Below, one piece after another: positions 7,123 through 28,093 of a stretch of 64,000 nt of DNA. The notes beneath the pieces are model-generated. The model was not told where the DNA came from and did not search any database. It saw only the letters and a program-made list of their open reading frames with translations. Each line of letters begins with the position of its first letter. Within the stretch, counting starts at the first letter, position 1. A program made the translations under genes and the position numbers. The stretch spans positions 1-64,000 of the forward strand of contig NZ_MJEJ02000026.1 in NCBI RefSeq assembly GCF_002095435.2. The letters are read 5' to 3'. The stretch comes from Williamsia sp. 1138 (lineage in GTDB: Bacteria; Actinomycetota; Actinomycetes; Mycobacteriales; Mycobacteriaceae).

Positions 7123-7136
7123 TGGCAGTAATGTCA
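7123..7136. promoter_or_regulatory. Operator-like inverted repeat before the aldehyde dehydrogenase operon
   Basis: TGGC-AGTAAT-GTCA in the context TTCTGGCAGTAATGTCAC. It closely resembles the sequence at 8262-8276 and the other copies in this island. It lies just upstream of the ALDH/ADH operon, in the short gap after the F420-type gene. Confidence 0.5.
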
Positions 7137-7168
7137 CTCTAGGGCAAGGATCGCTCCCTGCCACCGTT

Positions 7169-8251
7169 TCAGCCGAACAGGGGCCCGAGTTGATCAGGCG
7201 TGCTGCCGTGTAGGACCAGTTCGTCGGCACCGGCGTCGCGGTACTTCTCGAAGGTCGCCCAACAGTCGCTCGCCGAGCCCACCGCTGACGCGGAGCGGAT
7301 CCACTCCTCGGGCAGCGAAGACGCCACCTCGGTGAGTTGCTCGCGCGTCCGCACCGAATCCGCGGCCCCACGCACGCCGACCAGGTGTGGGTGGGCACGC
7401 AAGGCGTCGAGGTCATCGACCGACCAGCCGTTGACCTTCGCCAACTGCTCGCCGAAATTGGGTATTTGGTAATACGTGACCGCACGTCCCCCGACGACGG
7501 CCATCTCCTCGGCGGGATCGAGGCCGGTCGCGACAACGACCGTCGCGTAAACACGCACGCTGCCGGCCGGCCGGCCGGCTTCCTTCTCGGCCTCCCGAAC
7601 AATGTGCACCGAGCGTCCGACCGCCTCCGGCGTCAGGAACGGGTGCAACAGGACCCCGTCAAAGTGCCGGCCGGCGATGCCGAGCCCCTTGGGCCCGATG
7701 GCCGCGAACACCAGCGGAGGAACCCGCTGGTCAGGAAGGTCCGTGAGTCGCAGGGACGGGTACTTGCCTGCGGGCCCGTCATATTTGACCTTCTCCCCGC
7801 GACACAGTCGCCGGAAGAGTTCCACCGAATCGACGATCGACGCATTCGTCGACGGCGGCAGGCCGACGGCTTTCCACATCGCGTCGACGGACCTACCTAT
7901 ACCGATGACGATGCGGCCATTCGACATCGCCTGAGCAGTCATCGCCATCGATGCGAGCATCGCCGGATGCCGGGACTGAAAATGCGTGATGCCCGAGGCG
8001 ATCTTGATCGAATCGGTGACCTGGCCCATCGCACCGGCGAGGACCCCGAAATCCTTGGTGCCCCATCGTTCGCTGAGCCAGAGTGTGCGCAGCCCCAGTC
8101 GCTCGGCCTCGATCGCCTGACCGATCGCCGGTCGCGGATCGGGCACCCGCCCCGGAAGCGTGTACGCACCGAGCGCGAGGGACGTCTGCTGCCCCGCGTC
8201 ACCGATCGGGTTCGGCGCAATTTCCACATTGTTGGATTTTCTGTCCGTCAT
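7169..8251 (-). CDS. F420-dependent (luciferase-like) oxidoreductase, TIGR03857-like
   Basis: 360-aa TIM-barrel protein of the luciferase-like family. In mycolate actinobacteria most members of this subgroup use cofactor F420 rather than FMN. Family blocks are RVPDPRPAIGQAIEAERLGLRTLWLSERW (residues about 34-64), SGITHFQSRHPAMLASMAMTAQAMSNGR (about 90-118) and the glycine-rich VIGIGRSVDAMW that follows. It could carry out a hydride transfer or a monooxygenation on the pathway substrate. ATG 8251 is the natural start. Divergent from the APH-like kinase gene, with one operator-like site between them. Reaction not assignable from sequence. Confidence 0.75.
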   Translation of the reverse strand: MTDRKSNNVEIAPNPIGDAGQQTSLALGAYTLPGRVPDPRPAIGQAIEAERLGLRTLWLSERWGTKDFGVLAGAMGQVTDSIKIASGITHFQSRHPAMLASMAMTAQAMSNGRIVIGIGRSVDAMWKAVGLPPSTNASIVDSVELFRRLCRGEKVKYDGPAGKYPSLRLTDLPDQRVPPLVFAAIGPKGLGIAGRHFDGVLLHPFLTPEAVGRSVHIVREAEKEAGRPAGSVRVYATVVVATGLDPAEEMAVVGGRAVTYYQIPNFGEQLAKVNGWSVDDLDALRAHPHLVGVRGAADSVRTREQLTEVASSLPEEWIRSASAVGSASDCWATFEKYRDAGADELVLHGSTPDQLGPLFG

Positions 8252-8261
8252 AGCCCTATTC

Positions 8262-8276
8262 TGACAGTATTGGTCA
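8262..8276. promoter_or_regulatory. Operator-like inverted repeat, divergent promoter of F420 oxidoreductase and kinase genes
   Basis: TGAC-AGTATTG-GTCA in TTCTGACAGTATTGGTCAC, one of the best copies of the island motif. It lies 11 bases from the ATG at 8251 and about 63 bases before the kinase start, so it could serve both transcription units. Confidence 0.55.
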
Positions 8277-8338
8277 CTTTAGGAAAGGGCGTTCGCTTCC
8301 GAGTTCTCGGTGGCGTGCAACCCAGGGAAGGCATTCGC

Positions 8339-9442
8339 ATGGTTTACACACCGACCCGAGGTGAACTCGGCGGCGGCGCTCGCGAGATTCTGGACTCGTG
8401 GTTGCCCGAACGTGTCGCTCCGGGCGGCACCGGATTCGAGATCTCGGACTTCTCCGCGCCCGACGCGGGCTACTCGGGCAAGACAGTCTTCTTCACTGCC
8501 AATTGGACGGACACCACCGGCACCCGGCAGGAAGTCGATCTGGTGCTGCGCATGCAGGCTTCCGACCATCAGTTGTTCACTGAACCGGACGCTCCCCGGC
8601 AGGCGGAGATCATGCAACGTCTCGGACGTAGCGCCGGCATCGCGGTGCCCCAGATCGTTTGGATCGAACACGACGACTCGATCCTCGGAGCCCCGTTCTA
8701 TCTGATGCGTCGCGTCACCGGCCGGACGCCATCCGATGTCCCCAGCTGGCACAAGCGCGGCTGGACCACCGAGCTGTCGACATCCGAACGAGAGCTGTTG
8801 TGTGACAACGCGATCAAATCGCTGGTCGCAATACACCAAGTCGACGACCGAGAACTGCTGAACTTTCTCCGCGCCGACCCGGCCACCGGAACCACCGGGC
8901 TGGCGCGCTATCTCGACAACCTTCGCAGGTGGTACGAGTGGGCGCGCGAGGACCTCGTGGTCGGCGCCGATGTGCTGGAGCGGGCATTCGACGTCATCAT
9001 GACCGAGGCCCCGGCCACCGACCGCGACGGCGTGGTGTGGGGCGACGCCCGGGTGGGCAATATGTCTTTCGCCGACGACATGTCCGTCGCCGCGCTCTTC
9101 GACTGGGAAACCGCCACCACAGGCCCACCCGAGATCGACCTGGGTTGGTGGTTGATGTTCGAGGAGTTCCTCTGCGAGGCCTTGGGGTTCGCCCGGATGC
9201 CGGGAGTTCTCGACACCGACGGCACCATTGATCGCTACCTCGAGTTCGGCGGCCGGATCGACGGCGACATCACCTATTACAAACTGGTGGCTGCGTTTGT
9301 GTTGTCGCTCATCAACAATCGACTGGCCGTCCTGCTCGCCAGAGACGGCCTCGACGTCGATGTCGCACACAGCTATCCGAAAACCGTTGTCGCACTCGTC
9401 GAGCGATACCTGTCCGAACTGCATACCGAAGGAACGAGATGA
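8339..9442 (+). CDS. APH-fold phosphotransferase family protein, possible hydroxyacyl-CoA kinase
   Basis: 367-aa protein of the aminoglycoside-phosphotransferase/choline-kinase fold. Kinase elements are visible: the catalytic-loop motif WGDARVGN (HGDxxxxN type, with Trp for His) at about residue 238 and the metal-binding Asp in ALFDWETATTG. Relatives embedded in acyl-CoA catabolism include LvaA and the N-terminal domains of ACAD10/ACAD11. These phosphorylate hydroxyacyl-CoAs so that the phosphate can be eliminated. Starts at ATG 8339 after AGGGAAGG. The stop touches the next start (TGA/ATG overlap at 9439-9442), so it is coupled to the two hydratase genes. Aminoglycoside resistance is unlikely in this setting. 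Confidence 0.7.
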   Translation: MVYTPTRGELGGGAREILDSWLPERVAPGGTGFEISDFSAPDAGYSGKTVFFTANWTDTTGTRQEVDLVLRMQASDHQLFTEPDAPRQAEIMQRLGRSAGIAVPQIVWIEHDDSILGAPFYLMRRVTGRTPSDVPSWHKRGWTTELSTSERELLCDNAIKSLVAIHQVDDRELLNFLRADPATGTTGLARYLDNLRRWYEWAREDLVVGADVLERAFDVIMTEAPATDRDGVVWGDARVGNMSFADDMSVAALFDWETATTGPPEIDLGWWLMFEEFLCEALGFARMPGVLDTDGTIDRYLEFGGRIDGDITYYKLVAAFVLSLINNRLAVLLARDGLDVDVAHSYPKTVVALVERYLSELHTEGTR

Positions 9443-9891
9443 CCAGCACCTCCAACCCAGAAGCCTCGCCTGTCGGCGCCACCGGGCAACCCTGGGACAT
9501 GGTGATCGAACAGGGCAAGATTCGTGAGTTTGCGGCCGCCATGCAGTCGGACAACCCCGCATACCAGGGTCCGGACGCGATCATCCCTCCGACCTTTCTG
9601 GTCAACGCCGCGCACTGGGCCCCGGCCGGCGTACGGGTCACAGTCGGATTCGAACGCAAACGTCTCCTGCACGGCGAACAGGAGTACACATTCATCGGTC
9701 CACCGCCGAAAGTCGGTGATGTGTTGACCGCGCAAGAACGGCTTGTCGACCGATACGAGAAGCCGGGCAAGCGAGGCGGGCAGATGCGTTTCGCAGTGGT
9801 GCTCACCGAGTACCGCGATCGGGACGGCAACTTGGTTGCCCAGGCACAGGCCACCTTCATCGAACGAGCGGCACGAGGAGCATCTCAATGA
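9439..9891 (+). CDS. MaoC-like dehydratase, N-terminal-type subunit (hot-dog fold)
   Basis: 150-aa hot-dog protein of the MaoC_dehydrat_N type, similar to FAS1-like dehydratase domains (HadA/HadC or ChsH2 type). It has the region IIPPTFLVNAAHWAP (residues about 47-63) and HGEQEYTFIGPPPKVGDVL (about 75-95), but no catalytic DxNPxH motif. Such subunits pair with a catalytic MaoC protein, here encoded next with a 4-bp overlap (ATGA at 9888). Together they would hydrate an enoyl-CoA, probably one with a bulky acyl group. Confidence 0.8.
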   Translation: MTSTSNPEASPVGATGQPWDMVIEQGKIREFAAAMQSDNPAYQGPDAIIPPTFLVNAAHWAPAGVRVTVGFERKRLLHGEQEYTFIGPPPKVGDVLTAQERLVDRYEKPGKRGGQMRFAVVLTEYRDRDGNLVAQAQATFIERAARGASQ

Positions 9892-10319
9892 CCAGAACAC
9901 AGGCCTCACTCGCCGTCGGCGACACTGCGACCCCGCGCGACTTCGGCCCCATGACCCGTCAGATGTTCGTCCGCTATTCCGGCGCCTCGGGTGACCTCAA
10001 CCCGATGCACTACGACGACACCATGGCGCGGAGTGCTGGAAACCCGTCCGTGTTCTCCCAAGGCATGCACCAGTCGGCACTGCTGGCGACGTTCGCGACC
10101 GACTGGCTCGGCGCCGAGAACGTGCGACGGTTCGGCGTCCGGTTCCGCGAGCAGGTCTGGCCGGACGATGTCTTGACCTGTACCGGGACGGTCACTGCGA
10201 TCATTGACGGAGCCGGCGGCGAGGTCCTGGTCACCGTAGAACTGCTCTGCACACGGCAAACCGGTGCCGTCGCGATCGCGGGATCAGCCGATTTCGTCGT
10301 CCCAGGGGCCACGACGTGA
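9888..10319 (+). CDS. MaoC-family (R)-specific enoyl-CoA hydratase, catalytic subunit
   Basis: 143-aa hot-dog hydratase with the hydratase-2 motif DLNPMHYDD, giving the catalytic Asp36 and His41. It probably forms a heterodimer with the preceding subunit and adds water to a 2-enoyl-CoA. The order kinase, MaoC_N, MaoC with 4-bp overlaps indicates one operon starting at 8339. The stop lies about 70 bases before the double TetR gene. Confidence 0.85.
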   Translation: MTRTQASLAVGDTATPRDFGPMTRQMFVRYSGASGDLNPMHYDDTMARSAGNPSVFSQGMHQSALLATFATDWLGAENVRRFGVRFREQVWPDDVLTCTGTVTAIIDGAGGEVLVTVELLCTRQTGAVAIAGSADFVVPGATT

Positions 10320-10380
10320 GGAAATCGACGGCACCCGACCCGGGCTGTCGTTCGTCAATCTCGCCGATCAGCAGTTAGGC

Positions 10381-10395
10381 TGACCTCCAGTGTCA
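10381..10395. promoter_or_regulatory. Operator-like inverted repeat at the double TetR gene
   Basis: TGAC-CTCCAGT-GTCA, with GTATCTGACACTGGAGGTCA on the reverse strand. It overlaps the GTG start of the double TetR gene at 10390, so binding there would repress that gene directly. This is the pattern expected for autoregulation. Confidence 0.55.
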
Positions 10396-11724
10396 GATAC
10401 AACGCCGATTACACGCAGAGCCAGCTACGGCCCGTCCAGCCCCGACGTGGGCAGCCGGGGCGCGAACACGCGTACCAAGATCGTCGACGTCTCGTTGGAG
10501 CTGTTCGGCCGGGTGGGGTTCTTCAACACCTCGGTCGATGCCATCGCCAAAGAAGCCGACATCTCCAGGGCCACTCTCTACCAGTATTTCCCGGGCAAGG
10601 ACGAGATCTTTCTCGAGCTGCTCGATGTCTGCGGGCGGGCTCTCTTCCGCGTTGCGCGGCGCATCGGGCCGCTGGGCCCGACCAAGGTCGGGTTCGACAA
10701 TCTGAACTGGTGGCTCGGCGAGTGGAGTTGGGTCTTCGACCGGTACTCGACGATGTTCGTGCAGTGGACGAGTGTGGCGATGGCAGACACCTCGGTCCGA
10801 CCGCAGATCGATACATTCATGTCCGGATACACGAGAATGGTCACCGCCCGCCTCGAGCAGTCCGAGTTGCAGGGCATGGAACCGCGGGTGGCTTCGATGG
10901 CGATGATCGCGATCGTGCACCGCATCAACCTGTTCCTGGCCACCGACCGAACCTACGGGCGGGACACCCAGGCCGTCGTCGACTCGCTGTCCGTCTATCT
11001 GCAGTTGCTGCTGTTTCCGGAGACACCGTCATCCGTCCTGAACAGCATTCCCCTGGAGACGCCACCAGAAGATCCGGTCATCGAAGTACCCCCGCTGCCA
11101 TCGACCGCCGGCCTGTCGGCCGCCGACCGAACCGCGAACCTCAGCAAGCGTGCGGTCAATACCGTTCGCACCCTTGTCGATGCCGGAGCAACCCAGTTCC
11201 AGCTCAAGGGCTACCACCGCACCAGCGTCGACGACATCGTCGAGCAGGCCGGTCTCGCCCGCGGAACGTTCTACAAGTATTTCAGCGAAAAGCAGGATCT
11301 TCTCGTAGCCATCAGTATCGAGGGAACCGAGCAGGCGATCGACCATGCCGCACGCTTGAGCAAGATCGATCTCACTGATCCCGACACGACTGAACTCCGC
11401 GCCTGGATCAGCAGCTTCACCGCGTTCATGACGCGATACTCGGGTTCCATCGGTGCCTGGACCGAGAAGACCACGGACAACGATGTCGTGACCCAGTTGG
11501 GTATCTGCGGCCAGGCGGCGATGGATTCGGCCATGGTTGCGGACCTCATCACCAGAAAGCGGGACTACCCTTTCGATCCCGTGGTCGCGGCCATCATCTT
11601 CAGGTCACTTGTCGCGAGGATCCCGCAAGCCGCACAAGAGCTTTCACCGCCGTTGTCGGACGAAGCAACTGCCGACCTCTTGATCGACTGCATCAGGCGC
11701 GGTTTCTTCACCCACCTGACCTGA
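10390..11724 (+). CDS. Tandem (double) TetR-family regulator
   Basis: 444-aa protein made of two complete TetR units in one chain, about twice the usual length. Unit 1 has its HTH at residues about 20-65 (TSVDAIAKEADISRATLYQYFPGKDEIF) and a ligand domain to about 215. A Pro-rich linker follows (about 216-245). Unit 2 has its HTH at about 255-305 (TSVDDIVEQAGLARGTFYKYFSEKQDLL) and its own C-terminal domain. Both recognition helices look intact. The GTG 10390 start lies inside an operator-like repeat, so a leaderless mRNA or a later GTG (10447) is possible. It sits centrally in the catabolic island and is the best candidate for controlling the shared operator-like sites. Ligand unknown. Confidence 0.85.
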   Translation: MSDTTPITRRASYGPSSPDVGSRGANTRTKIVDVSLELFGRVGFFNTSVDAIAKEADISRATLYQYFPGKDEIFLELLDVCGRALFRVARRIGPLGPTKVGFDNLNWWLGEWSWVFDRYSTMFVQWTSVAMADTSVRPQIDTFMSGYTRMVTARLEQSELQGMEPRVASMAMIAIVHRINLFLATDRTYGRDTQAVVDSLSVYLQLLLFPETPSSVLNSIPLETPPEDPVIEVPPLPSTAGLSAADRTANLSKRAVNTVRTLVDAGATQFQLKGYHRTSVDDIVEQAGLARGTFYKYFSEKQDLLVAISIEGTEQAIDHAARLSKIDLTDPDTTELRAWISSFTAFMTRYSGSIGAWTEKTTDNDVVTQLGICGQAAMDSAMVADLITRKRDYPFDPVVAAIIFRSLVARIPQAAQELSPPLSDEATADLLIDCIRRGFFTHLT

Positions 11725-11827
11725 GTCACCCCTCTTGAATCTGACCACAGATCTTCATCTTCTGGCAGTCATTAGTACTGCCCTACTGCGTGTTTGAATC
11801 TCGATCACCGGCGCTCTTGATTGTTTC

Positions 11828-11841
11828 TGACAATTATGTCA
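11828..11841. promoter_or_regulatory. Operator-like inverted repeat before the SDR gene
   Basis: A fully symmetric copy of the island motif: TGAC-AATTAT-GTCA in TTCTGACAATTATGTCATC. It lies about 70 bases before the ATG at 11911. A weaker related stretch (TCTGGCAGTCATTAG) is at 11761. Confidence 0.6.
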
Positions 11842-11910: not shown

Positions 11911-12681
11911 ATGGATATAAGTCGCGCATCCGCACTCGTCACCGGTGGCGCCGGTGGTCTCGGCGAGGCCACGGTTCGCACCCTGGCCGCAGCCGGTACG
12001 TCGGTCGTCATCGCCGACCTCAATGACGAAAAGGGCAAAGCTCTCGAGGTCGAACTCGGTGACCACGTCCGCTACGTCAGCACCGATGTGCTGGACGAGA
12101 ACAGTGTCAACGCGGCACTGGCGGTCGCCAATGAACTTGCGCCACTTCGTATTGTCGTCAACGCCCACGGTGGTTCCGCGGGTGCATCGCGCGTTGTCGG
12201 ACGCGATGGCGAGCCGGCATCGTTCGAACAGTTCCAGTGGTACATCAACCTCTTCCTCAACGGCACGTTCAACGTGCTGCGCCTGGGCGCTGCCGCGATG
12301 TCCAAAAACGAGCCCGATGAGGTCGGCAACCGTGGCGTCATCGTGAACACCGCGAGTATCGCTGCGTTCGAGGGCCAGATCGGCCAGACGGCCTACTCGG
12401 CCGCGAAGGGTGGTGTCGTAGGACTGACGCTGCCTGCCGCACGCGATCTGACGAAGCAGGGCATCCGCGTGATGGCCATCGCCCCCGGCACTTTCTTCAC
12501 CCCCGCTTTCCAGATGGAACGCGAAGAGGCCGAAAAGCACTGGGGATCAACGGTTCCCTATCCGAACCGGATGGGCAGCCCGTCAGAGTACGCGGCTCTG
12601 GTCGAGCACATCGCCAAGAACGATTACCTCAATGGTGAGGTCATCCGTATCGACGGTGCACTGCGCTTCCAGCCGAAGTAG
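11911..12681 (+). CDS. Short-chain dehydrogenase/reductase, 3-hydroxyacyl-CoA dehydrogenase type II-like
   Basis: 256-aa SDR. The cofactor motif TGGAGGLG (about residues 11-18) and an Asp after the second strand (VVIADLND) indicate NAD preference. The catalytic Ser is in NTASIAAF and Tyr/Lys are in YSAAKGG. Overall it resembles HSD17B10-type enzymes that oxidise 3-hydroxyacyl-CoA or hydroxysteroids. ATG 11911 is chosen because GGAGAGGAA precedes it. The frame is open from 11821, but that part overlaps the operator. It fits the third step of beta-oxidation, after the MaoC hydratase. Followed by a long hairpin shared with the convergent dehydrogenase gene. Confidence 0.85.
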
Positions 12682-12760: not shown

Positions 12761-12771
12761 GTTGCGGCCGG

Positions 12772-14916
12772 CTATCGCGCCACGGGGTCGCGCGGCAGAC
12801 CGAGCAGGCGTTCGGCGATGGTGTTGCGCATGATTTCCGACGTGCCACCGGCGATGGTCAGACAACGCGCGAAAAGGTACGCGTAGGTCAGCTCCGGGGT
12901 ATCCCCCGTGACCGCCGCGGTACCGGCCAGATCGATACCGAGCTCGGTAATACGCTGCGAATGCTCCGCTTTGACCAATTTCGTCACGTTGGCCTCCGGT
13001 CCAGGACCGGCGCCGATCACCGCGCGAGCAGCCTGCCGGAGATTGAGCAGACGGAGTGTGTGAGCCTCGGCAATCATCTCGCCGACGCGGTGCTCGCCGT
13101 CAGATGAGCCGGTCTCATCGAGCAACTTCACCAACTCTGCGGTACCGAATGCGATGGAACCGCTACCGCCACCGATGGATACGCGTTCGTTGCCCAGGGT
13201 CGCGCGGGCGACCTTCCAGCCCTCGCCCACTCCCCCGACCACATCGGAGTCGGGCACGAACACATCGTCGAAAAACACCTCGTTGAACAGCGCATCACCG
13301 GTGATCTCACGCAATGGGCGGATCTGGACACCCTCGGACGAGAGGTCGATCGCCATCATCGACACTCCCGCATGCTTCGATGCATCAGGATCGGTCCGCA
13401 CGGTTGCCAGACCCCACTGACATTCGAGTGCCACACTGGTCCAGACTTTTTGACCGGTCACGCGCCAGCCCCCGTCCACCTTCTTCCCGACGGTCCGGAC
13501 GGCGGCGGCATCCGACCCGGCGCCGGGTTCGCTGAACAATTGGCACCATTGGTCCCGCCCGCGGAGCACAGGCTCGATCCAGCGGTTGCGCTGATCATGC
13601 GAACCCACCTGCGCGATGGTCAGATTGACCCAGCCTGTGATTCCCAGGTCGGGCAGGTCGATGCCCTCGAATTCTTCCTCGATGACCAACTGCTCCATGG
13701 CCCCGGCCTCGCGTCCCCAGGGCTTACGCCAGTGCGGGACAAGATATCCGCTGTCGACGAGGTGGTCACGGCGTTCCGCCTCCGACAGGGGCCGTACGGC
13801 GTCCGCTTCGGCGCGCGCGGCGGCCCTGAATGCCTCGGCTTCCTCGGGGAGCTCGAAGGACGCACCCTGTGCCTGTCCGGCCCGGTAGGCGGCGACGATG
13901 TCGGACAGCGGATCAATATCGTCGGACAGGATGGCGGCGACCGTGGTCGCGCGCCGCAGGTACAGGTGCGCGTCGTGCTCCCAGGTGAAGCCGATGCCAC
14001 CGTGCAGCTGGATGTTCATCCGTGCGTTCTTGAGTTGTGTCGGGCCCGCGTAGGAGGCCGCGACAGCCGCGGCGAACCAGGTTCCGTCGATGTCGTTCGC
14101 GCGAGCGGCATCCCATGTGCTCGCAATGGTCGCCTCGGTGGCGATGAGCATGTTGGCGCAATGATGTTTGACCGCCTGGAATGAACCGATGGTCCGCCCG
14201 AACTGTTCGCGAACCTTCGCGTACTCGGTCGCCATCTCCAGACATGCCAATGCACCGCCGATGGCCTCGGCCGACGCGAGAATCCGCAAGATGCTTCGGC
14301 TCGAACGCGCTGCGCCGCCAAGGATTCGATGGGCCGGGGCCGCGACGCCGGCACACGAGACAGTGCCGAGACCACGCGTGGTGTCGAGAGCCTTCGCGGC
14401 GGTGACCTCCACTCCTGCGGTGTCCTTGTCGAGGACGACGATATCGTCGCCGAGCGCGAGAACCAGCACGTCGGCCTCTGGCGCTGACAGGACGGCGCGC
14501 ACCTGGCCGCTGATCAAACCTTCGGCGTCCAGCGTCAATCCAGCGGACAGCCCGACGCCGCCGACCGCGGATCCATCGCCGAGACCCTCGAGGAGTGCCG
14601 ACTTGAGGCCGGCGTCGCCCGCATGCGCGATGACAGCCGATGCGACGACTGTCGCCAGAAACGGACCGGGAGCAAGCTCGTGACCCAGCGCTTCGAGCAC
14701 GACGGTGAGCTCCGCGATGCCGTAGCCCGAGCCGCCGTATTCCTCCGGGAGATGCAGGCCCAGCCAGCCGAGGTCTGCCGTGCTCGACCAGAATTTGGCT
14801 AGGTCGGCCGATCCATCGAGGGAATCACGCGCAGCACCGCGGACATCGTGGCGCTGCAGATGGCCGGCGGCGGCATCGGCCAGCTCGATGTGTTCGGAGG
14901 ATATGGCAAGCGCCAT
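12772..14916 (-). CDS. Two-domain (fused) acyl-CoA dehydrogenase, FadE34-like
   Basis: 714-aa protein with two acyl-CoA dehydrogenase folds. The N-terminal unit (about 1-340) has GWLGLHLPEEYGGSGYG and LHGGIGFTWEHDAHLYLRR but lacks the SEPGAGSD flavin loop. The C-terminal unit (about 345-714) has LFSEPGAGSD, QKVWTS and IAGGTSEIMRNTIAERLLGLPR. One gene encoding both halves is the arrangement of mycobacterial FadE34, which acts on steroid side-chain CoA esters as a pseudo-heterotetramer. ATG 14916 follows AAAGGTGG; the frame is open to 14967. It would introduce the 2,3 double bond of a bulky acyl-CoA. An alternative is an ACAD11-like role with the APH kinase. Confidence 0.85.
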   Translation of the reverse strand: MALAISSEHIELADAAAGHLQRHDVRGAARDSLDGSADLAKFWSSTADLGWLGLHLPEEYGGSGYGIAELTVVLEALGHELAPGPFLATVVASAVIAHAGDAGLKSALLEGLGDGSAVGGVGLSAGLTLDAEGLISGQVRAVLSAPEADVLVLALGDDIVVLDKDTAGVEVTAAKALDTTRGLGTVSCAGVAAPAHRILGGAARSSRSILRILASAEAIGGALACLEMATEYAKVREQFGRTIGSFQAVKHHCANMLIATEATIASTWDAARANDIDGTWFAAAVAASYAGPTQLKNARMNIQLHGGIGFTWEHDAHLYLRRATTVAAILSDDIDPLSDIVAAYRAGQAQGASFELPEEAEAFRAAARAEADAVRPLSEAERRDHLVDSGYLVPHWRKPWGREAGAMEQLVIEEEFEGIDLPDLGITGWVNLTIAQVGSHDQRNRWIEPVLRGRDQWCQLFSEPGAGSDAAAVRTVGKKVDGGWRVTGQKVWTSVALECQWGLATVRTDPDASKHAGVSMMAIDLSSEGVQIRPLREITGDALFNEVFFDDVFVPDSDVVGGVGEGWKVARATLGNERVSIGGGSGSIAFGTAELVKLLDETGSSDGEHRVGEMIAEAHTLRLLNLRQAARAVIGAGPGPEANVTKLVKAEHSQRITELGIDLAGTAAVTGDTPELTYAYLFARCLTIAGGTSEIMRNTIAERLLGLPRDPVAR

Positions 14917-15198
14917 CTCGGCCACCTTTCGATTGCGAACTCGTTCTAGGGCTGTCGGCATACGCAACTGACCCTAGATGTCAGATGAAGGATATTCAAG
15001 GTTCAGTCCCAGACGGCTTTGGGAACCGCCCCAGACACCGTCTGGCAAAGATCGATACGTGCTGAACTGCACAAACAAACCCATGTGAAGCCACAGAAAA
15101 CCGATTCGTCCAACTCGTAGACAATGTGTCAGATGATCTACTATGGTTTCAGCCAGGAGTGACCCACGTCATTCACATGAGAGATTTGGAAGTCTTGT
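14917..15198. promoter_or_regulatory. Divergent promoter region of dehydrogenase and ligase genes, with operator-like motifs
   Basis: TGAC-CCTAGAT-GTCA at 14969-14983 faces the dehydrogenase gene. A second copy, GTGTCAGATGATC at 15126-15138, faces the ligase gene. GTGA-CCCACG-TCAT at 15159-15172 is a near-match to CRP/GlxR sites. CCAGACGG and CCGTCTGG near 15008-15045 could form a further stem. No gene seen. Confidence 0.5.
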
Positions 15199-16710: not shown

Positions 16711-16757
16711 TAGCGGACCGAACTGTTGAAGTAACAAACCAGAACAAAGGAGACACC

Positions 16758-18156: not shown

Positions 18157-18195
18157 CGATCAGCATTGCCAAACAACAACTTCTAAGGAATCGAC

Positions 18196-19657: not shown

Positions 19658-19703
19658 CGAAGTTCCGTTCTCCCGTGCTGTCGAGTTGCTTGTCGTGTGC
19701 GTC

Positions 19704-20622: not shown

Positions 20623-20642
20623 GTGACACTGACGTTAGATCA
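20623..20642. promoter_or_regulatory. Operator-like inverted repeat before the dioxygenase operon
   Basis: TGAC-ACTGAC-GTTA in GTGACACTGACGTTAGATCA. Nineteen of these 20 bases are identical to the copy at 28056-28075. It lies about 60 bases upstream of the dioxygenase ATG, in the divergent gap to fprB. Confidence 0.6.
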
Positions 20643-20708: not shown

Positions 20709-20722
20709 GGACGTAACTGTCA
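20709..20722. promoter_or_regulatory. Operator-like inverted repeat before fprB
   Basis: GGAC-GTAACT-GTCA, with ATCTGACAGTTACGTCC on the reverse strand. It lies about 20 bases upstream of the fprB start and close to its ribosome-binding site. Confidence 0.5.
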
Positions 20723-20742
20723 GATACTGGAGGGCGACACTC

Positions 20743-22422
20743 GTGGCTTTTGTGATCCTGCAAGCTTGTTGCAATGACGCCTCGTGCGTCGACGTATGCC
20801 CGGTCAATTGCATCCACCCCACACCCGATGAACCGGACTTCATGCGTACCGAGATGCTGCACATCGATCCGCAGACCTGCATCGATTGCGGCGCGTGCGT
20901 TGAAGCATGCCCCGTCGAGGCGATCAAGGCCGAGGACGAATTGGACGACCCCGAGCTCCCGTTCATCGAGCTCAACGCCGACTACTTCGAACAACACCCC
21001 ATGCAGACCGGCCAACTCGACGTCCCGAAACCACTGTGGCGGAAGGCGGACTTCTCGGAGATGCGCGTGGCCATCGTGGGGTCCGGGCCGGCCGCGTTCT
21101 ATGCGGCATCCGAACTGATAGCACTCAAGGGCGTCCAGGTCGACATGTTCGAACGCTTGCTCACGCCATACGGTCTGGTGCGCTCCGGGGTCGCCCCCGA
21201 CCACCCGGGCACGAAAGCGGTCACCGACATCTTCCGAACCCTGGAGCGTCGCAAAAACTTTCGGTTGCATCTCGGCGTCCAGATCGGCGTCGACCTCACA
21301 CACGAGGAACTCCTGGCCCACAACCACGCTGTCATCTACGCGGTTGGTGCATCATCAGATCGCCGCCTCGGCATCAACGGAGAAGATCTGCCGGGCAGTC
21401 ATACCGCCACCGAGTTCGTCGGCTGGTACAACGGGCACCCCGACTATGCGGAGCGTACCTACGACTTGAGTGGCGAACGTGCCGTCATAGTCGGCAACGG
21501 CAACGTCGCGCTCGATGTCGCGCGTATCCTGCTCACCGATCCGGACGACCTCGATCGCACCGATATCGCAGACCACGCATTGGAAGTCTTGCGCACCAGC
21601 AATATCCGCGAGGTCGTCGTCCTCGGTCGGCGCGGTGTGGCGCAAGCCGGGTACACCAATCCCGAAATGATGGCGTTGCGTCACCTACCCGGGGTCGATC
21701 TCGTGATCGACCCCGACGAAGCGCAGATCGATCCCGTCACGCAAGGCATCCTGGATTCGCCCGAGACCGAGTCATCGGTGAAGGCCAAGGTCTCCCTGGC
21801 CCGCAAGGTTGCCGACGAAGGGGGAAGGGGCGCAACGAAACGTCTCGTGCTGAGGTACCTCACCTCCCCCACCGAGACCTCCGGCACCGATCGGGTCGAG
21901 TCCGTCGACGTCACGCGCAACGCACTCGAGCTGACCGACTCCGGGGCGGTCGTCGCGGTCCCAACGGACACTACCGAAACCATCGAGACGACACTGATCC
22001 TGCGTGCCGTCGGCTATCGGGGCGTTCCGGTGCCCGGAGTGCCCTTCGACGACGCTCGCGGTGTCATCTCCAACAACGAGGGCAGGGTTGTCACGTTGGT
22101 CGATGAGGAGCCCATTCAGGGCGTCTATGCCACCGGGTGGGTCAAGCGCGGTCCATCCGGGGTCATCGGAACGAATAAGAAGTGCGCCGCCGACACAGTT
22201 GATCTGCTGCTGCAGGACTACGTCGCCGGAGCCCTCGCCGATCCCCCACAGGACGCTGAGTCGTTTGCGGACCTGGTCTCGGAACGGGCGCCCGAGGTCG
22301 TCGACTTCGCCGGCTGGTCGCTCATCGACAAGGCAGAGAAGGCGGCCGGCAAGCCACGGAAGCGACCCCGCGTCAAGTTCGTCGATGTCGACTCGATGAT
22401 GGCTGTCGTTCGCGGCGATTGA
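20743..22422 (+). CDS. fprB: FprB-like ferredoxin-ferredoxin/NADP+ reductase fusion
   Basis: 559-aa protein with an N-terminal 7Fe-type ferredoxin domain (residues 1-~75). Its cysteines are in CCNDASCVDVCPVNC and CIDCGACVEACP. A flavoprotein of the adrenodoxin-reductase type follows, with an FAD motif VAIVGSGPAAFYAA (about 108-121) and an NADP motif VIVGNGNVALDVARIL (about 247-262). Mycobacterial FprB (Rv0886) has the same fusion and length. It passes electrons from NADPH to an oxygenase. GTG 20743 gives the family start (AFVILQ). In this island it may feed a ring-hydroxylating or P450-type oxygenase encoded elsewhere. Controlled by a nearby operator-like site. Confidence 0.88.
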   Translation: MAFVILQACCNDASCVDVCPVNCIHPTPDEPDFMRTEMLHIDPQTCIDCGACVEACPVEAIKAEDELDDPELPFIELNADYFEQHPMQTGQLDVPKPLWRKADFSEMRVAIVGSGPAAFYAASELIALKGVQVDMFERLLTPYGLVRSGVAPDHPGTKAVTDIFRTLERRKNFRLHLGVQIGVDLTHEELLAHNHAVIYAVGASSDRRLGINGEDLPGSHTATEFVGWYNGHPDYAERTYDLSGERAVIVGNGNVALDVARILLTDPDDLDRTDIADHALEVLRTSNIREVVVLGRRGVAQAGYTNPEMMALRHLPGVDLVIDPDEAQIDPVTQGILDSPETESSVKAKVSLARKVADEGGRGATKRLVLRYLTSPTETSGTDRVESVDVTRNALELTDSGAVVAVPTDTTETIETTLILRAVGYRGVPVPGVPFDDARGVISNNEGRVVTLVDEEPIQGVYATGWVKRGPSGVIGTNKKCAADTVDLLLQDYVAGALADPPQDAESFADLVSERAPEVVDFAGWSLIDKAEKAAGKPRKRPRVKFVDVDSMMAVVRGD

Positions 22423-22782
22423 CTCGCCGCACCAGAACCACTGCCCGAACTATTCTGACACTCGCGGTTATCTCTTGCATCGACTGAGCAATTCCGAACC
22501 AGGGATTAGTGATATGGATTCAGCGACACTGGTTTCGCCTCCGCGTGCCCTTTTACTGGTCTGACATTAACGTCTCTCCGGACGGGAACATCACGGTTCG
22601 ATAACATTGTCCGAAAAGGGTAGGAGTGACGCCCGTCATAGTCCACGATTCAGAGGTTCGTATCTGACACTGCGTCTTCAAATAGTTTGAACTTTGTGAT
22701 CGCTCGCAAGACAAGTACGACGCTCAACGGAACAACCCATGTGCGGGCGCAGCTTCTCTCGTCCCGACCTCAGGAGCACAAC
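22423..22782. promoter_or_regulatory. Promoter and leader region of the substrate-binding protein gene
   Basis: A 360-base gap. It contains TGAC-ATTAAC-GTCT at 22562-22575 and a second TATCTGACACTGCGTCT at 22661-22677, both variants of the island motif. Between them lies GTGA-CGCCCG-TCAT (22626-22639), a near-match to CRP/GlxR sites. Operator-like motifs on both sides of a CRP-like site suggest dual control of the transport gene. No coding potential seen. Confidence 0.5.
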
Positions 22783-24051
22783 ATGCAGAAATCAAGGACA
22801 GGCCGGCGGTTGATCGCAACGACTCTGCTGTCGGCCGCCCTCACCGCCGGAATGGTCGCCTGTAGCAGTTCGGATGATGGAGGCGACGCAGCTGCCGAGC
22901 CTTCGGCAAACGAGTCCGTACTCGGCACGCCGAACAAGGCCACCGGGACTCCGGTCACCATCGGATTCGTCAGCGAGGGACAGTCTCAGTCCATCGACGT
23001 CACCGACGAGATCCGAGGCGCCGAAGCTGCCGCCAACTACGCCAACGAGTACCTCGGCGGTATCGGGGGCCACCCCATCCAGGTCAAGTCCTGCCAAGCG
23101 CTGGCGCAGCCCGCCGTCGCGACCGACTGTGCCAACCAGATGGTCCAGGCCAAGGCCGCGGCCGTGGTCGGGCCGACTCCCGGTGAACTCGACAACCTCG
23201 TCGACGTCCTCTCTCCCGCCAAGATCCCGCTGGTGATCCACAGTGGGACAACGCAAAAGGGTCTCAGCTCTCCCGGCGTCTTCTCGCTGACTAACGGCAC
23301 CGCCTACTTCGCCATCTCCGCGACTGCGGCGAAGGACGAGGGACTCAAGAACACCGTCGGTGTCGCCATCGGCGTACCGGGTGCCGAGGGGCCCACCCGT
23401 CAGCTCGGTAGCCTGATCTGGGGCAACGCGGGTCTCGACTTCAGTGTGGTCGGCATTCCGCCCGGCACCGCCGATATGACCCCGCAGATCAGCGCAGCAG
23501 GTGCCGACGCCGACAACTTCTTCGTCATCGGCAACGACAGCTTCTGCACCAGCGCGTTCAAGGCGATCAAGACCACCAAGCCAAATGCTCCGATCTTCGC
23601 GATCGACCGATGCGTCACCATCGGCGGCGGTTCCTCGATCCCGAACGGCTACGAGGACATCAACGTCGCCACGGCACTGAACCTCAGCCCGGATGCACCC
23701 GACTCACAGCTCTACTCAGCGGTTCTCGCGAAGTACGGCGACGGCGCCAAGTTCGGCCAGCTGTCCTCAGCCGGATACGCCCCGATGCTCGGCATGATCA
23801 AGGCACTCAACGCCGCCAAGGTCACCGACCCGACGCAGCAGACCGTCATGGAGGCCATGAAGACGGCTCCGCCGACCGAGTACCCGCTCACCAACGGAAT
23901 CATGTTCCAGTGCAACGGCAAGCAGATCCCCATCTCGCCCAACATCTGCAGCGCCGACGGCATTCTCGCCAAAGCAACCAAGAACGGTGAACTCACCGAC
24001 TTCCAACAGGTGACCATCGATCCGAAGCTGTACGCAACACCGAGCGCCTGA
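22783..24051 (+). CDS. Branched-chain amino acid-type ABC transporter substrate-binding lipoprotein (LivK-like)
   Basis: 422-aa periplasmic-binding-type protein. A signal peptide with lipobox (GMVACSSSDDG, Cys about 26) anchors it to the membrane. It has the family I receptor fold: TPVTIGFVSEGQSQ at the start, NQMVQAKAAAVVGP, then PLVIHSGTTQKGL. Relatives bind amino acids, but also aromatic acids, urea and other ligands in actinobacteria. ATG 22783 follows AGGAG. The permease/ATPase genes converge on it from the other side, so the importer is split over two operons that carry the same operator motif. Ligand probably the island's substrate. Confidence 0.88.
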   Translation: MQKSRTGRRLIATTLLSAALTAGMVACSSSDDGGDAAAEPSANESVLGTPNKATGTPVTIGFVSEGQSQSIDVTDEIRGAEAAANYANEYLGGIGGHPIQVKSCQALAQPAVATDCANQMVQAKAAAVVGPTPGELDNLVDVLSPAKIPLVIHSGTTQKGLSSPGVFSLTNGTAYFAISATAAKDEGLKNTVGVAIGVPGAEGPTRQLGSLIWGNAGLDFSVVGIPPGTADMTPQISAAGADADNFFVIGNDSFCTSAFKAIKTTKPNAPIFAIDRCVTIGGGSSIPNGYEDINVATALNLSPDAPDSQLYSAVLAKYGDGAKFGQLSSAGYAPMLGMIKALNAAKVTDPTQQTVMEAMKTAPPTEYPLTNGIMFQCNGKQIPISPNICSADGILAKATKNGELTDFQQVTIDPKLYATPSA

Positions 24052-24427: not shown

Positions 24428-24446
24428 TGGTGCACGGGCACAACAA

Positions 24447-24483
24447 AGCCGGCCACCCTCCGCAGTGCGGATGGTGGCCGGCT
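24447..24483 (-). terminator. Hairpin terminator after the second ATPase gene
   Basis: 18-bp arms AGCCGGCCACCCTCCGCA / TGCGGATGGTGGCCGGCT with one mismatch. It lies 16 bases beyond the stop of the LivF-like gene on the minus strand. Confidence 0.8.
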
Positions 24484-24498
24484 CTGGTGTCGAAAGGG

Positions 24499-25263
24499 TC
24501 AGACAGCCTCTCCGAGGTAGGCCTGCTCCAGGAGTTCGGGATTCTTTGCGAGATCGCGTGCGGAGCCGCTGAGCCGGACACCACCGTGGACGATGACCAA
24601 CGCCTCATCGGCAACCTCGAGAGCCAACTGGACGTGCTGTTCCACCAGCACCACAACAGCATTGGTCTCATCGGCGATCCGGCGGACGATCGGCAGCAAC
24701 TCCTCGACAATGACCGGTGCCAGCCCCATGCTCATCTCGTCGATGAGGAGAACTCGGGGATTCTGGGTCAGAGCGCGAGCCACGGCCAGCATCTGTTGCT
24801 CACCACCCGACAGCGACCCTGCATTGACCTTGATTCGCTTCGCCAAGGCCGGGAACATCTCCATCGCCGCATCAACGCTGAGGCCTCCGGACCGCTTCGC
24901 GATCGATAGGTTCTCGCGAACCGTCATCGACGTGAAGAGCGCCCGGTCATCCGGGACCAGCACCAGCCCGCGACGATTGGCCTCGCCGGGTCGGCCACTT
25001 CGCAATTCTTTGCCCTCGACGACAACGTCACCACCCTTGCGCGGTAGCAATCCCGCCAGAGTGTTCATCAGTGTCGACTTGCCGGCACCGTTCGGGCCCA
25101 GGATCGCGAGCACAGAACCGGCCTGGAGCGAGAAGCTGACATCGCGGACCACCCGCACCGAGCCGTAACCGGCCGACACCTCCCGGCACTCCAGGATCGG
25201 AACCGCGGTGGGCCCGGGATCGTTCGAATGGTTCGCTTCGTCAGCCAGTTTCAAGTCAGCCAT
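24499..25263 (-). CDS. ABC transporter ATP-binding protein, LivF-like
   Basis: 254-aa ABC ATPase of the branched-chain amino acid (HAAT) type. Walker A GPNGAGKST (about 54-62), signature LSGGEQQ (about 153), Walker B VLLIDEM and the H-loop (VEQHV) are intact. An extension of about 25 residues precedes the ATPase core. ATG 25263 overlaps the end of the permease fusion gene by 8 bases, so it is co-translated. It pairs with the ATPase domain fused to the permeases to form the heterodimeric motor. Confidence 0.9.
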   Translation of the reverse strand: MADLKLADEANHSNDPGPTAVPILECREVSAGYGSVRVVRDVSFSLQAGSVLAILGPNGAGKSTLMNTLAGLLPRKGGDVVVEGKELRSGRPGEANRRGLVLVPDDRALFTSMTVRENLSIAKRSGGLSVDAAMEMFPALAKRIKVNAGSLSGGEQQMLAVARALTQNPRVLLIDEMSMGLAPVIVEELLPIVRRIADETNAVVVLVEQHVQLALEVADEALVIVHGGVRLSGSARDLAKNPELLEQAYLGEAV

Positions 25264-28021
25264 GAACCTGAGCCTCTCTTCCTAGGTATGCGGTCGCGAC
25301 GGTCCGGTTGGCCCGGATCTCCGCAGGGGTTCCGGAGGCGATGAGCTCACCGAAGTTGAGGACGTGGACCTCGTCGCAGATGTTCAGAACCAGATCCATG
25401 TCGTGATCGACCATGAGAATGGTGATCCCGCTGTCGCAGATCCTTCTCAGTCGCTCGCCCAACCAACGGCTTTCGGTGCTGTCCAGACCACCGGCCGGTT
25501 CGTCGAGCAAAAGCAGGTTCGGTGAACCGGCAAGAGCGCGAGCGATCGAAACCAGCTGGCGCTGTCCCTGAGACAATTCGCCGGCCGGGCGCTCACTGAT
25601 GTCGCCGATACCGAGCAGTTCGAACACCTCGGTCAGATGACCGATGTCATTGTGCTCGGCCTTGACATCGGGACGGTGCACTGCGGCGGTCCGACCGACT
25701 TTGACGTTCTCGGTCACACTGAGGTCGTCGTACAGTTCGATCGCCTGGAAGGTACGACCCAGACCTGCCCGGATCCGATTGTGCGGTGCGAGCCCGCCCA
25801 TCGAGGCACCGGCCAGCGTCACCTCGCCGGTGTAGTCGGCGAATCCGGTGATCGCGTCCATCAGCGTCGTCTTGCCGGCGCCGTTCGGGCCGATGAGCCC
25901 GACCAGTGCACCCTTGGGAATCTGCAGCGATACGTCCGACAGTGCTACCGCACCACCGTATTTCACCGAAACATCGGTGAGGGCGAGCTCAGGCAGCGCT
26001 GCGCGGTCGAACACCCGGGGCTCGGCCGACAGGTCCTTGGCAGGAACGTCGGGAGCGGTGTCCGACGCCGGCGCCGCCTTGGCCTTCGCTTTGAGCGACG
26101 CAGCGCGACGACTCGCCAGCAACGTATGGGCCGGTCCGACGATGCCCTCGGGATTGAGGATGACGGTGAAGATCAGCAGCACGCTGGAGATGACGACGTA
26201 CCACCCACTCACCGACCACATCTCGTCGACGAAAATGAACAACAACCCGTTGGCCGCTGTGACGCCTGCCAAGATGCCACCGGCCACCGAGGTGATGCCC
26301 GCCAGATAGACAGTGGCGAACAGAGCCACACCACCCAATGCAGCATAGGAATCGAAGGTCACCGTCTGCTGCTGATAGGCGAGCAGGGAACCACCGATGC
26401 CGGCGATGAATGCACCGATCGCGAACGCCAGGATCTTCACCCGGACGACGCTGACACCAGCCGCGGCAGCGGATCTTTCGTTGGCCCGCACAGCGAGCAT
26501 TTCGGTGCCGAGGCGGCTACGACGCAACAGGGCGACGAAGACGGCGACGGCGACGAGGACCAGGAGGACCAGAATACCGAAGGTGACTCGCGGATAGTCC
26601 AGTCCCTGACCGATACCCAGATCCCAACCGAACAGGCTGGGCTTCGGTGCCTTGACACCCTCGGCGCCCACGATGTCGACGTTCCGGAACCAGATGGCCT
26701 CGACCGCGAATGCCATTGCCAGCGTCACCACCGCAACGGTGAGCCCTCGAATCCGCAAGGCGGGCAACCCGATCAGAACACCGAGTGCGGCCGCACACAG
26801 CGCCGCCACGATCGGAGCGATCGGGAAGGGCAAATGAAATGTGTTGGCGATCGGACCGAGCAGGAAGCCCGCGACACCGGCGATGGTCAACTGGGCCAGG
26901 GAGACCTGTCCCGCGTAACCGGTGACGACGACCGACGACAGCGCGACGATGGCCATGATGAAGCTGACGATCAGACCGGTACGCATGCGGTCATCGAGCA
27001 GCACCAGAGCCAGGACACCAACGATCGTCATCACAACGGCGGTAGGTGCCACATGATTCGGTCTCGGCGCACGTCCAAGGGTCTGCAAGATGATCGCACC
27101 ACGGGCAGGCAGCGGCTTGGCACGGATCAACAGCACCAGCAGGATCAAGATCAGCGGAACCAGTTCGGGCAGTCCGGCGGCCGGCAGCCAGTCGAACGTC
27201 GTTGCCAGATACTGCGCCTCGGACTGAAGCATTCCGACTGCCAGACCGGCGAATACGGCGACCACGACGAGATCGAAGCGGGCCAGGATGGCTGCTGCCA
27301 AGGCCGGGACGATGAACAGGGTGTAGGCAACCGGCACCAACGGGACGATGGGCGCGATCAGGATGCCCGCGAGTCCGGCAACCGCGGAACTGAGCATCCA
27401 GTTGTAGGCCGCGATCCGGTCGGGTGAGATACCGCTGACGTAGGCACCGCGCTCGGTTTCGGCAGACGCGCGAGTGGCGAGGCCGAACTTCGTGTAGCGG
27501 AAGACCAGTGCCAGCAGAATTGCCAAGACAACGATCGTGAGCGCGAAGTAGAAGCGGTCGGCCGACAACTGCAGGTCACCAGCCTGCCAGATATCGGTCG
27601 GGAAGATCGGGTCGACCGATATCGGGTCAGTGCCGAGTTTCTGTGCAACCAACCCTGCGATCAGGAGCGAGATTCCCAACGCCGCGACCGCGCGTGCCAC
27701 CAGAGGCGATGTGCGCAGCGGCCGGAAGACCAGCAAATACAGGATCAAGCCGAGAAGCGCGGCGATGACCAGTGAGAGCGCCATTGCAGGCCACATTCCC
27801 ATCGGCCCGCCGAGGTCTATCGAGTCCGGCAGACCCGGGATGAGGATGAGTAGCTCGCCCTCACGTAGGTATGCGTACGTGTACGCAGTGTACAGCGCGA
27901 TGGCTCCCGTCGCGAAGTTCACGACGCCCGAGCTGCGATACGTCAAGACGACAGCCAGTGCCAAAGCGCCGAAAACTGCGCCGTTGCCTAGCCCGAGTAG
28001 CAAAAACACCAGATGCTGCAT
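25256..28021 (-). CDS. Fused ABC importer: permease (LivH) - permease (LivM) - ATPase (LivG)
   Basis: About 921-aa single protein containing three parts that are normally separate. Residues 1-~300 are a LivH-type permease (NGAVFGALALAVVLTYRSSGVVNFATGA). About 310-620 are a LivM-type permease (GYAGQVSLAQLTIAGVAGFL, GLPALRIRGLTVAVVTLAMAF). A charged Ala/Lys linker (about 630-675) leads to a LivG-type ATPase with Walker A GPNGAGKTT, signature LSQGQRQL, Walker B LLLLDEP and H-loop VDHD. Many hydrophobic segments are visible. ATG 28021 gives the usual MQHLVFLLLGLGNG start; GTG 28039 is possible. It imports the ligand of the LivK-like protein. The fusion enforces 1:1:1 stoichiometry. Confidence 0.9.
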   Translation of the reverse strand: MQHLVFLLLGLGNGAVFGALALAVVLTYRSSGVVNFATGAIALYTAYTYAYLREGELLILIPGLPDSIDLGGPMGMWPAMALSLVIAALLGLILYLLVFRPLRTSPLVARAVAALGISLLIAGLVAQKLGTDPISVDPIFPTDIWQAGDLQLSADRFYFALTIVVLAILLALVFRYTKFGLATRASAETERGAYVSGISPDRIAAYNWMLSSAVAGLAGILIAPIVPLVPVAYTLFIVPALAAAILARFDLVVVAVFAGLAVGMLQSEAQYLATTFDWLPAAGLPELVPLILILLVLLIRAKPLPARGAIILQTLGRAPRPNHVAPTAVVMTIVGVLALVLLDDRMRTGLIVSFIMAIVALSSVVVTGYAGQVSLAQLTIAGVAGFLLGPIANTFHLPFPIAPIVAALCAAALGVLIGLPALRIRGLTVAVVTLAMAFAVEAIWFRNVDIVGAEGVKAPKPSLFGWDLGIGQGLDYPRVTFGILVLLVLVAVAVFVALLRRSRLGTEMLAVRANERSAAAAGVSVVRVKILAFAIGAFIAGIGGSLLAYQQQTVTFDSYAALGGVALFATVYLAGITSVAGGILAGVTAANGLLFIFVDEMWSVSGWYVVISSVLLIFTVILNPEGIVGPAHTLLASRRAASLKAKAKAAPASDTAPDVPAKDLSAEPRVFDRAALPELALTDVSVKYGGAVALSDVSLQIPKGALVGLIGPNGAGKTTLMDAITGFADYTGEVTLAGASMGGLAPHNRIRAGLGRTFQAIELYDDLSVTENVKVGRTAAVHRPDVKAEHNDIGHLTEVFELLGIGDISERPAGELSQGQRQLVSIARALAGSPNLLLLDEPAGGLDSTESRWLGERLRRICDSGITILMVDHDMDLVLNICDEVHVLNFGELIASGTPAEIRANRTVATAYLGREAQVHG

Positions 28022-28055
28022 TGTGACGCCAATCCTCACCGGAGATCTTTCAAAG

Positions 28056-28093
28056 GTGACACTGATGTTAGATCATGCTGCGACGTACGTCAC
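28056..28093. promoter_or_regulatory. Operator-like repeat and CRP-like site before the permease fusion gene
   Basis: TGAC-ACTGAT-GTTA at 28057-28070 in GTGACACTGATGTTAGATCA, almost identical to 20623-20642. Beside it lies GCGA-CGTACG-TCAC at 28080-28093, a symmetric GTGA-N6-TCAC variant. Both are within 75 bases of the start. Confidence 0.6.

Follow-up and report, generated by a model that had tools for sequence, protein, structure and literature searches.

The catabolic island and its shared motif

The window analysed here, the first 64 kb of the 69,348-bp contig C7 in the 6.08-Mb draft genome of Williamsia sp. 1138, carries part of a catabolic gene island in which an operator-like motif containing TCTGAC precedes most transcription units, together with a gene for a regulator with two TetR units in one chain (the double TetR). 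In both nearest named relatives, Williamsia limnetica (G007) and W. muralis (G006), a second contig, C1, adjoins C7 at about base 1125; the island was therefore taken as spanning the two contigs and was defined as C1:1–39 kb plus C7:1125–28.1 kb, about 66 kb. It encodes two thiolase-like proteins, one adjoining a DUF35/ChsH2-like protein, an aldehyde dehydrogenase (ALDH) with an N,N-dimethyl-4-nitrosoaniline (NDMA)-dependent-type alcohol dehydrogenase (ADH), an oxidoreductase of the luciferase-like monooxygenase (LLM) class and F420 type, a kinase, a MaoC-type pair, acyl-coenzyme A (CoA) dehydrogenases (one of them fused, the others single), ligases, CoA-transferases, a cytochrome P450, a Rieske oxygenase, a LigB dioxygenase and a LivK-type importer. 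An earlier, sequence-only reading of the window had proposed one regulon covering the island; a regulon covering most of it is supported, and the island and its sites extend up to about 39 kb past the left end of the window.

Island intergenic DNA (38 stretches, 6,553 bp, from C7 below 31.5 kb and C1 below 28 kb) was compared with control intergenic DNA (18,831 bp); the sets take in 30 bp at the start of each gene. TCTGACA was found 14 times in the former, one copy overlapping the double-TetR start, and once in the latter; coding sequences contained one copy in 54,087 bp of the island and five in 91,170 bp of control. Counts in island intergenic, control intergenic, island coding and control coding DNA were 7, 0, 0 and 0 for ATCTGACA and 11, 0, 1 and 1 for TCTGAC-N5-7-GTC. 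TCTGAC was the first-ranked 6-mer, and a blind motif search on the island set returned TG(A/T)CA in all five best solutions. On the control set, which is nearly three times larger, the same search reached a higher objective with periodic, GC-rich patterns. Two block-shuffled island sets reached objectives near 79 versus 168 for the real one, and one of them had a GTCACGTGAC-like top solution.

Sites were scored with a two-block matrix trained on loci L064–L105, which belong to other genera and include no Williamsia. At a threshold of at least 13 bits, 16 distinct sites were found in the island, 12 in C7:1125–28150 and four in C1:1–39000. Outside it there were none in 41 kb of C7, one in 61 kb of C1 and three in 266 kb made up of 15 other stretches, five of which had been picked for an earlier pattern match, a bias running against the claim of enrichment. 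In all, 16 sites lie in the 66-kb island versus 4 in 368 kb elsewhere. The empty 41 kb fits the remark in the sequence-only reading that the motif does not precede nitrate or housekeeping genes, within a stretch whose genes are only partly annotated. The looser pattern TCTRACAN3-5KGTC matched 20 times in the genome, eight of the matches falling in the island (about 1% of the genome), and its reversed control matched seven times genome-wide. In W. muralis 8 of the 18 matches lie in the syntenic island, and six other Williamsia genomes, which gave no match at E ≤ 1e-30, had 7–15 matches versus 5–13 reversed ones. Outside the island, TCTGACATATTTTGTC at C1:157544–157559 of G000 is found with every base unchanged in G007 and G141 and is possibly another conserved element.

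All places listed from the sequence carried the motif when read directly; the nine main sites score at least 14.5 bits, and the copies given as 20623 and 28056 do share 19 of 20 bases. Among the four copies described as weak, 22661 (site 22663 on the plus strand, 15.5 bits) and 15126 (15133 on the minus strand, 11.8 bits) were retained, and 2865 (2868, minus, 6.2 bits) and 2996 (3000, minus, 6.6 bits), both below 7 bits, were not. Sites that had been missed are the one at 22454 and four on C1, at 2022, 2135, 5187 and 21367, the last being the top-scoring site of the island (30.1 bits). A further site at 5604–5618 (14.2 bits, identical in W. muralis) is among the 16 counted but was left out of Table 1, since 0 of 30 ADH orthologues have a counterpart. 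By our own division into units, 11 of the 13 transcription units in C7:1125–28150 are headed by a site of at least 13 bits.

Comparison with W. muralis showed near-perfect conservation of the 16 sites, with 222 of 224 aligned bases identical, versus 4642 of 5563 other intergenic bases (83%) and 591 of 717 flanking bases. Twelve of the sites are wholly identical, and a single base is changed in each of those at 8260 and 20709; the sites at 22454 and 22560 (33 bases) lie in DNA that is unaligned with W. muralis.

Site anatomy and linkage to the double TetR

The consensus of the sites is WTCTG(A/G)CA-N4/5-(T)GTCAC(T/C)WTAG, with TCTAACA sometimes as the first half-site and a spacer of 6 or 7, less often 5, between TGAC and GTCA. 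The facing half-sites described earlier were borne out as a TGAC/GTCA core, but the element is not a plain palindrome: it is asymmetric, with two unlike half-sites. This was put to an unbiased test on distinct sites with exact symmetric TGAC-N6/7-GTCA cores. An AGA flank stood on neither, one or both sides in 20, 61 and 2 of 83 distinct predicted sites of the main group; 12.7 two-sided sites were expected, and none of 200,000 shuffles gave as few as 2. These predicted sites thus show the asymmetry described for an operator of a double TetR of the Mce3R type. The corresponding counts were 13/7/4 in five loci from metagenome-assembled genomes (L100–L104) and 2/3/0 in G345. The two-sided sites in L100–L104 (4 of 24 distinct and 5 of 19 intergenic cores) raised the idea of a symmetric ancestral operator, which was rejected: in the tree, L100–L104 groups with G225 (99/95) and, with less certainty, with G345 (93/86), and two-sided cores number 0 of 8 in G093 and 0 of 5 in G345.

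In 64 of 65 pairs of sites within 250 bp of each other, and in 21 of 22 sequence clusters, the neighbours share one orientation; the clusters still have promoter ancestry in common, so that the independent number is smaller. Between divergent genes lie 136 of 199 intergenic sites. The pair types are spaced at about 68, 76, 85, 89, 96, 103, 105, 112, 123, 130, 133, 142, 158–165 and 190 bp. Helical phasing of the pairs is not claimed, although raw Rayleigh values looked significant, because most pairs are orthologous and no single period is seen by eye.

The double TetR belongs to the TetR family (PF00440, 114 bits over two stretches) and has the layout of the Mce3R type, with helix-turn-helix (HTH) regions near residues 25–78 and 254–320. 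In alignment A1 a strongly conserved N-terminal arm precedes the two conserved HTHs and backs the start at 10390, over the 10447 of the gene caller. Few genomes have a relative (at E ≤ 1e-40, 5 of the 397 that were sampled in the order), and the family occurs in Williamsia, Gordonia, Rhodococcus, Tomitella, Nocardia, Mycobacterium, Nocardioides, Streptomyces and actinobacterial metagenome-assembled genomes. Three paralogues with 44–46% identity to the window protein, and a further 27% match, lie within about 165 kb on contig C3 of G093 (L043–L046).

Similarity to the double TetR was used to retrieve 44 loci (L062–L105), in which the regulator is therefore present by selection. The dyad occurred 181 times in them versus 12 reversed, and 16 versus 21 times in 36 loci that were retrieved for similarity to a single domain alone and belong mostly to other phyla. 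All 42 non-Williamsia double-TetR loci have a matrix match of at least 15 bits, versus 3 of 42 for the reversed matrix. Since these loci had also served to train the matrix, the held-out test matters: double-TetR regions of G093, G345 and G225, whose regulators are 39–46% identical, gave 19 matches and one reversed in 237 kb. G201 was kept out of that test, its contig C45 (7 matches, 0 reversed) being the training locus L099; its contig C46, which carries a 33% relative, gave 2 matches and 0 reversed.

Within the loci the sites stand mainly at the heads of units. Besides the orthologue counts in Table 1, a site precedes 21 of 21 P450 genes and 2 of 12 orthologues of the CoA-transferase at 3075. 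Two C1 genes, 31892–33385 (27/28) and 39634–41130 (15/16), were left out of the head counts because their matches repeat ALDH loci (28/28 and 16/17). Among operon-internal genes a site was found for 0/20, 0/20 and 0/18 behind the P450, 0/40 of the second MaoC, 0/30 of the ADH, 0/10 of the thiolase, 3/30 of the hydratase, 2/11 of the SnoaL and 1/11 of the 16758 gene. The first MaoC (22/36) and the CoA-transferase at 17104 (10/20) have sites though they are internal here; they may head operons elsewhere, as the first MaoC does in L072, the one locus inspected. Oxidoreductase orthologues with at least 65% identity have an upstream site in four of four genomes, that of the window included (28.2, 16.7, 14.2 and 13.9 bits), all with the regulator; none of seven homologues at 40–50% identity has one, and one of these is in the window's own genome.

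Table 1. Predicted operator sites and island genes in the window; scores in bits are matrix scores for sites and model scores for genes
Feature	Position	Strand	Remarks
Operator upstream of ALDH-ADH operon	7121..7136	+	predicted, 26.0 bits; half-site TCTGGCA; upstream of 30/31 ALDH orthologues
Operator between divergent oxidoreductase (-) and kinase (+)	8260..8276	+	predicted, 28.2 bits; 11/11 and 12/12 orthologues
Operator overlapping double-TetR start	10381..10397	-	predicted, 21.0 bits; GTG 10390 inside; identical in W. muralis
Operator upstream of SDR	11826..11841	+	predicted, 28.2 bits; 9/12 orthologues
Operator between divergent fused acyl-CoA dehydrogenase (-) and ligase operon (+)	14969..14985	-	predicted, 20.8 bits; 7/13 and 9/11 orthologues
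Second, weaker operator, tandem to 14969	15119..15133	-	predicted, 11.8 bits; spacer 5
Operator in the gap from LigB dioxygenase (-) to ferredoxin/reductase fusion (+)	20624..20639	-	predicted, 24.5 bits; TCTAAC half-site; 16/25 LigB orthologues
Further operator of that gap, in tandem with 20624 (85 bp)	20709..20724	-	predicted, 19.4 bits
Operator 1/3 upstream of LivK-type protein	22454..22470	+	predicted, 17.4 bits
Operator 2/3 upstream of LivK-type protein	22560..22575	+	predicted, 14.5 bits
Operator 3/3 upstream of LivK-type protein	22663..22677	+	predicted, 15.5 bits; spacer 5
Operator upstream of ABC permease/ATPase fusion (-)	28057..28072	-	predicted, 26.6 bits
Double-TetR regulator, proposed operator reader	10390..11724	+	444 amino acids, GTG start, two TetR_N domains
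ALDH + NDMA-dependent-type ADH operon	4413..7062 (ALDH 5614-7062, ADH 4413-5576)	-	Pfam Aldedh, ADH; TIGR03989 513 bits, cut-off 440
LLM-class F420-dependent-type oxidoreductase	7169..8251	-	TIGR03857 498 bits, cut-off 218
APH-type kinase + two MaoC/FAS1_DH-type dehydratases	8339..10319	+	Pfam APH, FAS1_DH_region, MaoC
Short-chain dehydrogenase/reductase (SDR)	11911..12681		downstream of operator 11826..11841
Fused double acyl-CoA dehydrogenase	12772..14916	-	Pfam, NCBIfam
Acyl-CoA ligase, CoA-transferase III, enoyl-CoA hydratase	15199..18996	+	Pfam
LigB-type dioxygenase + SnoaL-like protein	19070..20564	-	NF009909 445 bits, cut-off 286; SnoaL_2
Fer4 ferredoxin/pyridine-nucleotide reductase fusion	20743..22422	+	Pfam
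LivK-type periplasmic binding protein	22810..24051	+	Peripla_BP_6
Branched-chain-type ATP-binding cassette (ABC) importer: permease-ATPase fusion + ATPase	24499..28021	-	Pfam BPD_transp_2 (two stretches), ABC_tran

The oxidoreductase starts at ATG 8251, eight orthologous loci (two of Williamsia) aligning from residue 1, and the kinase at GTG 8315 or ATG 8339. In the importer, one 921-amino-acid chain (25256–28021) unites two permease stretches with an ATPase, and on the C1 arm an acyl-CoA ligase and an enoyl-CoA hydratase form a 790-amino-acid fusion (L032:9489–11861). The contig end (1–1124), with an rve-type integrase at 3–578 on the minus strand, is missing at the C1/C7 junction of both Williamsia relatives and so looks like a mobile element or an assembly-break repeat. 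At 32216–33385 a HemD uroporphyrinogen-III synthase is fused to a response-regulator-type DNA-binding domain.

The proposed regulon and its alternatives

Since the motif travels with the double TetR across actinobacteria, this protein very probably controls the island. We hold with good confidence that the motif is its predicted operator, that the island is its regulon and that it would act as a repressing, single-chain, Mce3R-like pseudo-dimer. A single regulon is well supported for most of the island by the concentration of the sites, their conservation, their placement mainly at operon heads and their linkage, across the phylum, to the double TetR; comparative genomics strongly supports this protein, which the sequence-only reading had named for testing, as the candidate regulator.

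We infer binding, repression, fold, inducer and the assignment of HTHs to half-sites as follows. By analogy with Mce3R, one chain with two TetR units would fold as a pseudo-dimer whose two unlike HTHs sit on adjacent major grooves, one half-site each. One HTH would read WTCTG(A/G)CA (sometimes TCTAACA) and the other TGTCAC(T/C)WTAG across the 6–7 bp spacer; that HTH1 takes the TCTG(A/G)CA half is guessed from its likeness to MftR. As the half-sites are unlike, each operator would be directional and neighbours would stand in tandem. Without inducer the protein would cover promoters or start codons and block the operons, many of them divergent pairs, and an inducer, perhaps an acyl-CoA or aromatic acid of the pathway, would release it. 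Sites lie 9 bp away from the ATG of the oxidoreductase, across the regulator's own GTG and in the short divergent gap before the kinase, a placement that would suit steric repression, the general behaviour of TetR proteins; autoregulation of the double TetR is proposed from the site over its own start.

Several observations weigh against this interpretation. A site at the double TetR's own start was found in 7 of 40 loci, and the thiolase/DUF35 and CoA-transferase units of the window have sub-threshold sites only; for DUF35, 7 of 10 orthologue loci have a match, five of them L100–L104 and the other two scoring 12.0 and 11.8 bits. The loose pattern shows no genome-wide excess in W. muralis (18 versus 15 reversed), so that the evidence there is concentration and not total. 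Training of the matrix on the loci of the head counts inflates these counts, leaving the window, footprint and held-out tests unaffected, and many of the loci are close relatives. The unbiased cores of G093 lack the asymmetry (5/3/0, 3 of 8 one-sided), and the likeness to the Mce3R fold comes from sequence. In G133 a P450 gene has two strong sites (26.2 and 28.2 bits) and the genome no double TetR at E ≤ 1e-20; the contig (L158) is 3.9 kb long in a draft given 4% contamination, and contamination or a missing contig is a possible cause. No match of at least 11 bits stands in the 4.2 kb around the P450 orthologues of G093 and G345. A set of 25 P450 homologues at 46–51% identity, taken from fetched loci only (P450 matches were found in 103 genomes), was kept apart; none has a match of at least 15 bits, and three have one at 11.3–13.5.

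The G133 case could be read as a real regulon with another reader, for example the single TetR at 28484–29110 or the TetR at C1:10608–11219, both with TetR_N and within the island or at its edge. Such a reader is very unlikely, as at 40% identity and 60% coverage the former was matched in one and the latter in none of the 44 loci, yet the motif is present in 42 of the 42 non-Williamsia loci (7–21 kb each, in which a remoter regulator could be missed). A symmetric homodimer, moreover, predicts no consistently asymmetric operator. A further alternative is that the asymmetry is not read by the protein. The GTCACTWTAG side might instead be a promoter −10 box overlapping a symmetric operator, its opposite strand being CTATAGTGAC, which resembles a −10 hexamer, and the orientation does fit the downstream gene at 7121, 8260 and C1:5187. 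However, 42 of 60 single-gene sites (35 distinct), C1:21367 among them, are oriented wrongly for such use, the sites having been picked with the asymmetric matrix and the genes called automatically, and the right flank of those 42 starts with T or C in more than 90%, not GA. We regard a −10 box as unlikely.

In a third explanation the motif would be a product of chance or of composition in AT-richer intergenic DNA. In its favour, short seeds are frequent, and TGAC alone is only mildly enriched in the island (97 in 6.6 kb versus 182 in 18.8 kb). This explanation has a negligible probability, being refuted by the reversed-pattern controls, the footprint conservation and the held-out genomes.

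With the double TetR as the probable reader, the island of about 66 kb, with its P450, NDMA-type ADH, F420-type oxidoreductase and ring-cleavage genes, would be tied to one switch. A widespread double-TetR subfamily would have a predicted operator with a direction and a testable regulon, and a possible biosensor part once the inducer is known. The balance also tips, though only slightly, towards a broader view, in which a phylum-wide family of single-chain double TetRs reads directional operators: the joining of two subunits in one chain would have freed the half-sites to diverge, giving each operator a polarity, and promoters would carry tandem same-direction arrays. If true, the Mce3R mode would be general and would give a code by which many uncharacterised double-TetR regulons could be read.

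Comparison with known regulators

KstR exemplifies TetR-family control of large actinobacterial CoA-linked (steroid) catabolic regulons; its operator differs from those found here, and the window protein scores 46 bits on the KstR model (cut-off 280). MftR, the mycofactocin repressor, has one TetR unit; NDMA-dependent-type ADHs, of which the island has one, use mycofactocin. MftR is the top NCBIfam match, at 81.6 bits with its best stretch at residues 20–74 (the first HTH), and the protein falls far short of membership (TIGR03968, cut-off 224.9 bits). The half-site T-N2-GGCA in the MftR operator given in PMC8728441, T-N2-GGCA-N5-TGCC-N2-A, resembles TCTGGCA here; that operator is a symmetric 27-bp palindrome, whereas those of the island are asymmetric. 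TCTGACA is also present in a dsz primer table of PMC6534649.

The double-TetR class is already known. Among the papers listed in a literature search none was on this motif or regulator, or gave the operator and regulon of this subfamily, subscription literature being mostly outside that search. According to PMC11667970, which presents the first structure of such a protein, 204 double-TetR proteins are predicted in actinomycetes.

Mce3R (9b7y) is the top-scoring solved chain by sequence and shares the single chain with two TetR units. Only the HTH regions of the window protein align with it (30.5 and 26.7 bits), which falls short of orthology, and no mce family was found among the 55 Pfam-scanned proteins, which come from the island within the window and from a portion of its C1 arm. 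In PMC11667970, mce3R orthologues are called exclusive to a subset of pathogenic mycobacteria, whereas the present family spans many actinobacterial genera. The regions bound by Mce3R are reported there without a palindrome, and its motif is described as larger and more complex in PMC4482099; the operators here have a clear TGAC-N6/7-GTCA core and so depart from that report. The comparison with Mce3R is with its published description. Its asymmetric operator, bound by the two unlike HTHs of one chain, its autoregulation and its lipid/cholesterol-linked regulon, as given in PMC11667970, parallel what is proposed here. Its two 25-bp sites 53 bp apart would give 78 bp from centre to centre, and in a 22-locus mycobacterial cluster of the present family two same-direction sites stand 76.5–80.5 bp apart on that measure.

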